64,000 bases of DNA, taken from Streptomyces actuosus. GTDB taxonomy: Bacteria; Actinomycetota; Actinomycetes; Streptomycetales; Streptomycetaceae. The notes beneath the pieces were generated by a model that did not search any database, had not been told where the DNA came from, and saw only the letters and a program-made list of their open reading frames with translations. A program made the position numbers and the translations under genes. The stretch spans positions 186,001 through 250,000 of the forward strand of contig NZ_JAFFZS010000003.1 of NCBI RefSeq assembly GCF_016921115.1, in the 5' to 3' direction. This document shows positions 31,003 through 36,098 of the stretch, piece by piece. How positions within the stretch are numbered: position 1 is the first letter of the stretch; each line of letters begins with the position of its first letter.

Positions 31003-32610
<1,608 letters not shown>

Positions 32611-32619
<9 letters not shown>

Positions 32620-32629
32620 ATGAATCAAC
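32611..32629. promoter_or_regulatory. Dyad over the carboxypeptidase start codon
   Basis: GTTGAT and ATCAAC arms flank CATATGA, covering the ATG of the carboxypeptidase and the 10 bases before it. The stretch is strikingly AT-rich for the region. It could be an operator or a hairpin that limits initiation. Confidence 0.45.
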
Positions 32630-33128
32630 CTAGGAACTGACGCTCTGTCCGCCAGGCGGGACGGGCCGAACGCCGCGCGCGAGCACCCGGATGCCGCACC
32701 GCCCCCGCGTCGTCCGCCCGGCCGGAATCCGGCAGGCGGCGCGACGGGCGAACGCCTGTGCCCCGATGTGACGGTGCGACAGGGGGGGCGGAACAGGCCT
32801 GCCGGGGACGGAACAGGGCGCAACGGCCCGCACGGCCGGAACCGGCCCGAGCGGATCGAACGAGGGCGGGCGGGATACCGGAACCGGGACGGGCGCCGAC
32901 ACGGGGGTGGGGGAGGGCCGGATCACGATCGGCCCGCAGCACGCGACGCCCCGGTCGATCTCAGCGCCCTGCCGGTCACCCCCGGGGGGCCGGGTCCGCT
33001 CCGACGACGGCCTGGCCTTCCGCAAGCGTCGCTCCGCCGAGTCCGGGGCCGTCGTGCATGCCGACGGGACGATCCGGACGAATACCGGCCCCGTGGAGGC
33101 CGAGCGGCGCCGAGCCGGGGTGGGACCC
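32630..33128. other. 499-bp intergenic region
   Basis: No gene is recognised between the carboxypeptidase start and the Rho gene stop. Frames are Arg/Gly/Pro-rich without family resemblance. It should hold the carboxypeptidase promoter near 32640. Confidence 0.5.
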
Positions 33129-34274: not shown

Positions 34275-34859
34275 GGTGGTCGGTCGGTCCTTTCCCGGAC
34301 TGGGGCACGAGGCAAGGGGGTGAAGGAGACGCCGCGCACGTCAGGACGGCGGGCAAGCGCGCCTTCGGCGGCGGGAACGGTCGCTCGGGCGCGACGGGTC
34401 GAGGCCGTCGCCACGGGAGCGATCCGGAAGATCCGCGGGGCTCGGCCGGACTCCGTGAGAGTCCGCGGGACTTCGCGACCGTCCGAGGGAACCGTGAGAA
34501 CCCGAAGGGTCCGCGAGAATCCGGAAGAGCCCGTGAGAGGAGTGATGTGAAGAGACCGTGGACGGTCTGTCTGCACGTCGCCCGCGACGGGGCGTACAAA
34601 CGTGCTGCCGTCACTGTACCACCGGCCGGCTGCGATCCGGCACGTCTCCTTTCGGCGCCCTCGCCTGCGGCGGGACCTCCCCCTGACGCGGCGGCGTTCC
34701 GGCGAGCGTCCCCAGGCCCCGTCGGCGCGGACGCGGGTACCCGGCACGGCAGGTGAGCGCGTGGCCGGAGCCCCGCTTCCCGGCCCTTCCCCGGGCTGGG
34801 TCGTACGGGCAGAATCGAACGGCGCTTTCCGTGTCACTCCGCTTCGCCGAGGAGCCCAG
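34275..34859. other. 585-bp divergent region between rho and the P450 gene
   Basis: It holds the repetitive rho leader (34421-34568) and the promoter of the P450 gene. No coding gene is apparent; reading frames mirror the repeat. Confidence 0.6.
34421..34568 (-). repeat. Degenerate ~20-bp tandem repeat in the rho leader
   Basis: On the minus strand the leader repeats units such as ATTCTCGCGGACCCTTCGGG and TTCTCACGGTTCCCTCGGA about five times with a period near 20. Units are pyrimidine-rich, and some form small stems (GGACTC with GAGTCC). A perfect dyad AGACCGT-GG-ACGGTCT lies at 34553-34568. The pattern resembles an array of Rho-loading sites and may autoregulate this rho gene. Confidence 0.55.
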
Positions 34860-36098
34860 GTGGATCACCAGCCCGTCCCGCCCCACCGCATGGACGCCGC
34901 CGGCGGCTGTCCCCACGCCGCCAACGCGGCACTTCTGGAACGTGGTTCGGTCGTGCCGGTGGTGCTGCCCGGCAGGATCGAGGGGCGGGCCGTGGTCGGG
35001 CACGAGGCGCTCCGGGAGTTCCTCGCACACTCCGAGGTCGCCAAGGGCCCGGAGCACTTCACGGCTCTGCGCGAGGGGCGCATCCCGGCGGGTTGGCCGC
35101 TGATGACGTTCGCGACCGTGCCGGGCATGACCACGGCCGACGGCGACGACCACCGGCGGCTGCGCGGGCTGGTCAGCCGGGCCTTCACCCCCCGCCGTGT
35201 CGAGGAACTTCGGCCCCGGATAGTAGAGTTGACGGATCGTCTGCTGGAGGACCTGGCCCGTTCGGCGGAGGAGAGCGGCGGCGACGCCGACCTGCGCCGC
35301 CATGTCGCGCTGCCTCTGCCGATGGGAGTGATCGGTGAACTGCTCGGTGTGGGTGCCGAGTACCGCGACCGACTGCACCGCCTGTCCGGCCAGGTCGTAG
35401 CCACCGACATCGACCCCGCCGAGGCGATCACAGCCAACCGCGAACTCGTCGCCCTCCTGGGCGAGATCGCCGCCGCCAAGGCCGAGCACCCCGGGGACGA
35501 CCTCACCAGTGCCCTGATCGCGGCCCGGGACGAGGGAGGCGACCGGCTCGACGGGCAGGAACTCATCGGCACCATGCTGCTGATGGTCATCGCCGGCCAT
35601 GAGACCACCCTCAACCTCATCACCAACGCCGTGCGGGCCCTGTGCGCGCACCGCGACCAACTCGCACGGGTCCGCGAGGGCGAGGCGGGCTGGGACGACG
35701 TCGTCGAGGAGACGCTGCGCTGGGACGCCCCCGTCAGCTATTTCCCCTTCCGCTACCCCGTCCGGGACCTCACCCTCGACGGCACGGTCCTTCCGCGGGG
35801 TCTTCCCGTGCTCGCGGGGTACTCCGCCGCCGGGCGCGACCCGGCCGTGTACGGACCGGACGCCGACCGGTTCGACGTGACCCGCCCGTCCCGCGCCTCG
35901 GCGGCCCGCCACCTGTCCCTGGGGCACGGCACCCACTACTGCCTGGGCGCCCCCCTGGCCCGGCTGGAGGCCACGGTCGCCCTGGAACGCCTCTTCACCC
36001 GCTTCCCGGACCTGGACCTCGCCGTCCCCGACTCCGAACTGCCCCGGCTGCCGAGTTTCGTCGGCAACAGCGTCGGCGCGCTGCCCGTGCGGATCTGA
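34860..36098 (+). CDS. Cytochrome P450
   Basis: The 412-residue soluble P450 has the I-helix AGHETT (oxygen-activating), the K-helix ExxR in EETLRWD, and the haem-binding loop LGHGTHYCLGAPLARLE with the Cys ligand. The first position of the haem signature is Leu rather than Phe. The GTG is chosen because GGAG lies 5 bases upstream. It hydroxylates an unknown substrate, probably using a ferredoxin encoded elsewhere. The methyltransferase gene follows after 55 bases, so the two may modify the same compound. Confidence 0.95.
   Translation: MDHQPVPPHRMDAAGGCPHAANAALLERGSVVPVVLPGRIEGRAVVGHEALREFLAHSEVAKGPEHFTALREGRIPAGWPLMTFATVPGMTTADGDDHRRLRGLVSRAFTPRRVEELRPRIVELTDRLLEDLARSAEESGGDADLRRHVALPLPMGVIGELLGVGAEYRDRLHRLSGQVVATDIDPAEAITANRELVALLGEIAAAKAEHPGDDLTSALIAARDEGGDRLDGQELIGTMLLMVIAGHETTLNLITNAVRALCAHRDQLARVREGEAGWDDVVEETLRWDAPVSYFPFRYPVRDLTLDGTVLPRGLPVLAGYSAAGRDPAVYGPDADRFDVTRPSRASAARHLSLGHGTHYCLGAPLARLEATVALERLFTRFPDLDLAVPDSELPRLPSFVGNSVGALPVRI

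Follow-up and report, generated by a model that had tools for sequence, protein, structure and literature searches.

In Streptomyces actuosus, a conserved hairpin in the untranslated leader of a second, compact rho gene (rho2) probably controls the amount of the second Rho protein, as the comparison of related leaders suggests. The overall reading favoured here, with about even confidence, is that the leader acts on rho2 as a cis-regulatory RNA, with Rho-dependent attenuation as the most likely mechanism, and that the tandem array inside it is a linker expansion with probably little function of its own. The leader lies in a window of 64,000 nucleotides (positions 186,001 to 250,000 of contig NZ_JAFFZS010000003.1, from an assembly of 8.45 Mb), whose numbering is used throughout (Table 1).

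The identity of the Rho2 protein was confirmed by its two Pfam families, by PDB Rho chains matching with E values down to 3e-116, and by a domain organization consisting of the Rho RNA-binding domain and the ATPase domain without a long N-terminal extension. The main Rho is encoded at G000:C210:7810-8949 in an open frame of 736 codons and is 57% identical to Rho2 (55% over the BLASTP alignment). The rho gene of the window is thus a duplicate, compact copy, distinct from the main rho. The initial annotation had spoken of a rho leader; the array does precede a rho gene, but it is this second copy and not the main one. Of 199 Streptomyces genomes sampled, 107 have two Rho matches. The upstream regions of 106 of the 107 were studied, the remaining one belonging to a rho2-like match in G184 (67% over residues 76-378).

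Table 1. Features at the rho2 locus, in window coordinates.
Feature	Position	Strand	Basis
rho2, second compact Rho, 381 aa	33129..34274	-	Pfam PF00006 and PF07497
Shine-Dalgarno hairpin, GUCC-GGGAAA-GGAC	34287..34300	-	sequence conservation
P3, inner hairpin within an outer CCGC/GCGG stem	34331..34374	-	shared CCGCCG...GCGG frame
P2, outer stem and inner hairpin (GG-A-UCGCUC...GAGCGACC around GGCGACGG..CCGUCGC)	34376..34425	-	local fold
Degenerate 10/20-nt tandem array with terminal dyad (34553-34568)	34421..34568	-	linker between P1 and P2
P1, probable 5'-terminal hairpin, GCACGU-UUGUA-CGCCC..GGGCG-ACGUGC	34573..34606	-	covariation and model R1
Probable extended -10 element, GTGGTACAGT plus 6 nt, TACAGT at 34613-34618	34607..34622	-	fixed spacing to P1
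Divergent cytochrome P450 gene, start inferred	34860..36098	+	PF00067

A peptidase S11 (D-Ala-D-Ala carboxypeptidase) gene lies near rho2 on the same strand (31315-32823), and such a gene on the strand of rho2 is found inside the fetched flank in 76 of 80 named relatives; a functional link or shared transcription of the two genes is possible. The P450 gene is present in the fetched flank of only 5 of the 80. On plasmid p1 (616 kb) of Streptomyces angustmyceticus, a rho2 relative is 72% identical, and no P1 match up to E 1 was found within the searched stretch. The rho2 of locus L026 is 79% identical, has an unrelated-looking upstream region, and its P1 is not recognisable. A Rho-like protein encoded beside an N-6 DNA methylase on plasmid pKP058 of Kitasatospora purpeofusca is only distantly related (58.8% identical) and is annotated, in a longer frame, as hypothetical.

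The untranslated leader of rho2 is about 332 nt long and consists of P1, a linker, P2, P3, a C/U tract and the Shine-Dalgarno hairpin. In the window, P1 reads AGCACGUUUGUACGCCCCGUCGCGGGCGACGUGC and has a local fold of -16.1 kcal/mol; in relatives it takes the form AGCACUUGUGUACGCCC-loop-GGGCGCCGGUGC, downstream of GTGNTANNNT. Automatic anchoring, which used the -10-type motif together with a loose P1 pattern, succeeded for 91 of the 106 leaders. In 87 of these, GTGNTANNNT starts 16 nt ahead of P1, a count in which the presence of the motif is partly given by construction and the spacing less so. In most of the 15 unanchored leaders P1 was recognised by eye, though not in L026 and L135. The evidence for the transcription start is comparative, namely the -10-type motif at a fixed spacing ahead of P1. 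A start of rho transcription downstream of the array, the outcome that the initial annotation had named as refuting its own proposal, appears unlikely from this spacing and from P1, which suggest a start upstream of the repeats. Short upstream ORFs in the leader were inspected by eye alone, and P1 loop lengths vary.

There is good evidence that P1 works as an RNA, given by compensatory changes in an alignment of 66 of 90 distinct rows. Its structure of 11 pairs is formed in 90.3% of the aligned cells, a percentage flattered because rows that matched badly or nearly duplicated others (e.g., L068, L088, L118, L119, L130-L132) were left out. Both sides of a pair have changed in 43 cells, compared with 11.7 in shuffled alignments (reached in 0 of 500), and structures slid along the alignment drop to 29-50% paired. 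The covariation score is likewise higher (0.206 vs 0.109; 0 of 500), and 7 of the 11 pairs have changed on both sides, compared with 4.0 in shuffles (reached in 2 of 500). Pairing is incomplete at two places, the outermost pair 1-43 being open in 38 of the 66 rows and pair 6-38 in 16. The asymmetric internal loop (UGUGUA / CC) contains G8 and G10, which hardly vary, between helices that do covary.

P1 is also closely tied to rho2. A covariance model of P1 (R1), whose alignment includes the copy of the window, found a single significant site in the genome of origin, at E 5.2e-5; the next best site had E 0.39, and a second copy elsewhere in the genome was therefore rejected. In 101 Streptomyces genomes, all 43 matches at E<=0.0034 lie upstream of rho2. 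The gene is present in 48 of these genomes, five of which have no P1 match at this threshold, and none of the 53 genomes without rho2 has one. Since the 101 genomes include most of those from which R1 was built, the matches at rho2 are partly given by construction, but the absence elsewhere is not. Twelve weaker matches (E 0.016-0.1) at other places are at about chance level. Across 296 genomes of the class, matches were obtained in 15 of the same genus, seven of them outside the R1 source set (E 1.4e-12 to 0.0088), and rho2 adjoins P1 in all seven. Four weak matches in other genera (E 0.001-0.008) were dismissed as close to chance, none having rho2 in the fetched stretch. At the 80 named rho2 loci, which overlap with the R1 source genomes, 79 had upstream DNA, and P1 was detected in 74 at E<0.01 and in 77 at E<0.06, approximately 200-365 nt before the gene; seven further matches (E 0.039-0.83) lay at other places.

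Compensatory changes in P1 and a consistent location before one gene family are what is expected of a cis-regulatory RNA. No Rfam family matched the window at gathering score, and a cmscan run against every Rfam family, admitting matches as weak as E 1, found none in 34275-34625 or in L025:1225-1510. A literature search whose coverage left out most subscription journals returned no described Streptomyces rho leader and no described P1. Even without any link to a drug, P1 is a conserved candidate for a cis-regulatory RNA, without an Rfam match in the tested stretches.

Another explanation is that P1 is a 5'-terminal stabilising hairpin and that the leader is otherwise unregulated, its pyrimidine bias being a by-product of composition. 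P1 does sit directly at the inferred transcript start, and 5' hairpins that stabilise mRNA have reportedly been described for aprE of B. subtilis and gyrase of M. smegmatis, in work cited in PMC3765725. A generic stabiliser, however, would have no need to preserve one specific internal loop or to stay confined to one gene, and it leaves aside the pyrimidine content, which exceeds the 95th percentile of the control in 71 of 71 leaders, as well as the preserved frames of P2 and P3. This explanation is considered unlikely.

P2 of the relatives (ACCUCG/CGAGGU), counted on 29 rows of 34 tried, is paired in 94% of cells with hardly any covariation. The P2 of the window folds with z -1.93 (14 of 200 shuffles as stable), and from its position and the shared architecture we infer that it (GAUCGCUC/GAGCGACC) is homologous to that of the relatives. 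The frame of P3 with its variable inner stem was followed by eye in the correctly anchored rows among 61, some of which were mis-anchored; its fold has a median z of -2.06 in 58 relatives and -0.39 in the window. Closer to the gene, 80 of 106 rho2 upstream regions, and 60 of 71 named ones, have the motif GTCC..GARAGGAC around the Shine-Dalgarno site, in the 40 nt that precede the protein match. Folding of the last 55 nt of the leader hardly exceeds that of shuffles (median z -0.73; window +1.19). The linkers of the relatives fold better than shuffles, with a median z of -1.91 as against -0.02 in the window, and the whole leader of the window does no better than shuffles (z -0.33).

The main rival to Rho-dependent attenuation is control by a factor that binds P1. 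The leader would then be a ligand- or protein-sensing RNA that acts independently of Rho, in which the internal loop of P1 binds a small molecule or Rho2 and the Shine-Dalgarno hairpin provides the translational output. The two nearly invariant guanines between covarying helices fit such a role, as do the occurrence of the Shine-Dalgarno hairpin in 80 of 106 regions, the folding of linkers and P3 in relatives, and the precedent of a rho-named structured RNA in Pseudomonas (PMC2864571, of which parts were consulted). On the other hand, P1 is small, with 11 pairs, has no Rfam match, and in the window is separated from the start codon by about 300 nt. Sensing by P1 is regarded as possible, albeit on the improbable side.

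The composition of the leaders favours Rho-dependent attenuation. It was evaluated on the 71 leaders that could be anchored among the 80 named loci (eight were unanchored and one had no upstream DNA). Their median pyrimidine fraction is 0.634, compared with 0.498 in random neighbouring stretches, and all 71 exceed the 95th percentile of this control; the C/G ratio of the best 78 nt is 2.54 vs 1.43, with 70 of 71 above the 95th percentile. When 35 non-coding-like upstream regions serve as the control, all 71 leaders lie above for pyrimidines and 50 of them for C/G. The leader of the window is milder, with pyrimidines at 0.59 (above 0.56) and a maximum C/G of 2.13, just under 2.16 and below the median relative. 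As a class, the rho2 leaders are pyrimidine-rich with C above G, as judged from their sequences and as expected of Rho-loading RNA; the C-rich, G-poor composition of Rho-dependent attenuators and autoregulated rho leaders was found for C/G in 70, and for pyrimidines in all, of the 71. A high pyrimidine content is no proof of a Rho site.

Because the gene encodes Rho and its leader has the composition that Rho prefers, Rho-dependent attenuation is proposed as the most likely mechanism. Rho, be it the main Rho1, Rho2 itself or both, would load on the pyrimidine-rich leader and stop transcription early within it, and rho2 would be made when Rho activity falls. P1 may protect or position the 5' end of the rho2 mRNA, while P2, P3 and the Shine-Dalgarno hairpin may tune loading and translation. 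Against attenuation, the leaders are structured, which can hinder Rho, P2 is almost devoid of covariation, and P3 of the window hardly differs from shuffles. The idea of a Rho-loading region that had been put forward for the array thus survives in part: the leaders are pyrimidine-rich as a class, but the linkers of the relatives fold, which speaks against a simply unstructured loading stretch there.

The array itself is real and lies where the initial annotation had placed it. Tandem Repeats Finder (TRF) reported arrays of period 20 at 34448-34499 (score 55) and 34492-34538 (score 57), and only 1 of 400 shuffles scored at least 55. At lag 20 the sequence is identical to itself at 0.445 of positions; the maximum over lags 19-21 was matched by 1 of 5000 dinucleotide shuffles, and the top value over any lag from 10 to 44 by 7 of 5000. 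Lag 10 gives an even higher identity (0.464). The repeat is therefore built on a unit of about 10 nt, which by eye reads RYYCYCNCGG in the mRNA, and the unit of about 20 bp described earlier persists as a super-period. Of 863 other stretches of 148 nt in the window, 22 reach the lag 19-21 value, for which codon periodicity is our guess. The array is pyrimidine-rich only mildly (60.8% on the mRNA strand), and the C-richest part of the leader lies elsewhere: C/G is approximately 1.2-1.8 in 78-nt windows over the array, compared with the leader maximum of 2.13. The small stems once ascribed to it are at chance level in the mRNA (z -0.74 for 34418-34560; z -1.21 for 34421-34580). The terminal dyad, by contrast with these stems, does form a hairpin of six pairs (AGACCG-UCCA-CGGUCU, -8.0 kcal/mol; 6 of 200 shuffles as stable), and it was not seen by eye in the upstream regions of relatives that were inspected. 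As a separate observation, the plus strand opposite the array (34421-34580) folds better than shuffles (z -2.41, 1 of 200).

A DNA search with the whole leader covered 295 Streptomyces genomes, 73 of which gave a match. Among the matches listed, a few touch its edge, the best ones cover the gene-proximal leader or the promoter and P1, and many others are short and lie at unrelated places; no listed match falls inside the array except in the genome of origin, and the array was rejected as a conserved element. The starts of P1 and P2 are 181 nt apart in the window and 73-103 nt (median 93) apart in 29 relatives. When TRF was run on 150 distinct leaders, tandem copies just behind P1 appeared in few (L001, L071, L174, L117, L204 and L025), and the units differ: TTCTTCCCGG, of 10 nt, is repeated 3.7 times in L071, a 23-base unit occurs twice in L174, the linker of L117 contains a CTCCGGTT-like run, and L204 and L025 have shorter duplications. 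A general 10-nt periodicity of all linkers was not found (lag 10, z -4.4); in the pooled linkers, lags 8, 5, 11, 19 and 22 exceed mononucleotide shuffles, as related linkers would give.

Since the array lies in an enlarged P1-P2 linker and unrelated duplications occur there in other leaders, it looks like one of several expansions that a tolerant linker has undergone independently. In the favoured reading this one is a lineage-specific tandem expansion, probably with little function of its own. Neutral replication slippage in non-coding DNA is a rather likely origin for the array alone and is compatible with the favoured explanation of the leader: the copies are degenerate and not seen in relatives, and the duplications in other linkers are unrelated to them. 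One point does not sit easily with slippage, as the periodicity remains well above shuffles despite diverged units, and such divergence would take time if nothing keeps them. A functional array could consist of YC-bearing decamers that form an in-phase ladder of Rho primary sites, or of repeated protein-binding sites. It could draw on the 10-nt periodicity, on the pyrimidine block in each unit and on the separate 10-nt repeat in the linker of L071, but few of the 150 leaders have tandem copies behind P1, their units differ, linkers at large lack the 10-nt period, and the C/G of the array is low; we regard this as quite improbable. The reading of the array itself as a conserved Rho-loading or protein-binding element is not supported: the array was found in no relative, its C/G is below that of the best stretch of the leader, and a few other linkers carry duplications unrelated to it.

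The Rho2 protein was compared by alignment at the positions where at least 20 of 21 main Rho copies share the E. coli residue, using 110 close Rho2 proteins (30 plus 80 from named genomes, with duplicates kept and some species present twice). The changes are F64 to H (82), M186 to V (110), P279 to A (92), S281 to G (101), M327 to A (110) and F335 to L (110), and E. coli positions 102 and 104 are missing in all 110. E. coli position 337 is occupied by Ser in 92 of the 110 close Rho2 proteins and in 11 of 20 distant ones, while Gly is found in 21 of 21 main Rho proteins and in 27 of 130 Rho2 copies. G337S is, as we take it, a bicyclomycin-resistance change in E. coli, and F64 is presumably part of the Rho primary RNA site. 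A literature search for G337S found no paper. The Rho2 of the window, which itself has Ser at position 337 and changes at RNA-binding positions, is a candidate bicyclomycin-tolerant Rho, and its recognition of its own leader is uncertain because the RNA-binding domain differs (F64 to H in 82 of 110; 102 and 104 missing). The Leu320 to Met mechanism of M. tuberculosis, as given in the parts of PMC8828861 consulted, was ruled out, Leu320 being kept in both Rho1 and Rho2.

According to the consulted parts of PMC8269248, one of the Rho duplicates of S. lividans is mutated in the bicyclomycin-binding and RNA-binding domains, and the idea at the protein level is therefore already in print. This second Rho, set beside ours by description, is probably the same kind of protein as Rho2; the passage in question concerns the protein and mentions no leader RNA. 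Streptomyces is described as insensitive to bicyclomycin though the Rho of S. lividans is inhibited in vitro, and export or a non-essential Rho are the explanations given in the parts of PMC6934819 consulted. The boldest reading of the locus would be that the rho2 leader senses Rho activity: Rho1 would terminate in the leader, and its inhibition, for instance by bicyclomycin from a neighbouring Streptomyces, may lead to read-through and to the production of a drug-tolerant backup Rho. This candidate reading is doubtful, and its backup part is weakened by the 27 of 130 copies that have Gly337. If true, it would help to explain the insensitivity of Streptomyces in spite of a main Rho that is sensitive in vitro; a direct explanation would be a Rho duplicate that combines a changed drug pocket with a conserved leader of its own. 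It would also be a possible case of a termination factor gene that reports on termination itself.

Several known systems can be set beside the rho2 leader. The Pseudomon-Rho RNA motif is located upstream of rho. It is a conserved structured RNA of Pseudomonas (Rfam RF01720), as seen in the consulted part of PMC2864571, and resembles the rho2 leader in being tied to a rho gene and presumed to act in cis. However, the rho2 leader precedes a second, compact Rho in Streptomyces, and it is placed outside RF01720 because neither the window nor L025 matches that model; it may nevertheless work alike without being a member. Autoregulated rho leaders form a second group, with rho/rhoL of E. coli and the leaders of B. 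subtilis and Caulobacter. There, too, a long untranslated leader stands before rho, where Rho can stop its own synthesis, whereas the Streptomyces gene is a duplicate whose leader has the conserved 5' hairpin P1 and a Shine-Dalgarno hairpin, and whose autoregulation is putative. Finally, Rho-dependent attenuators are found in structured mRNA leaders of the mgtA/corA type, and attenuation by Rho in a structured leader was reportedly described by Kriner and Groisman in 2017, as cited in PMC11109978. Such leaders share with that of rho2 a structured RNA and a possible Rho-loading stretch before the gene; the difference is that the target gene of the rho2 leader itself encodes Rho.
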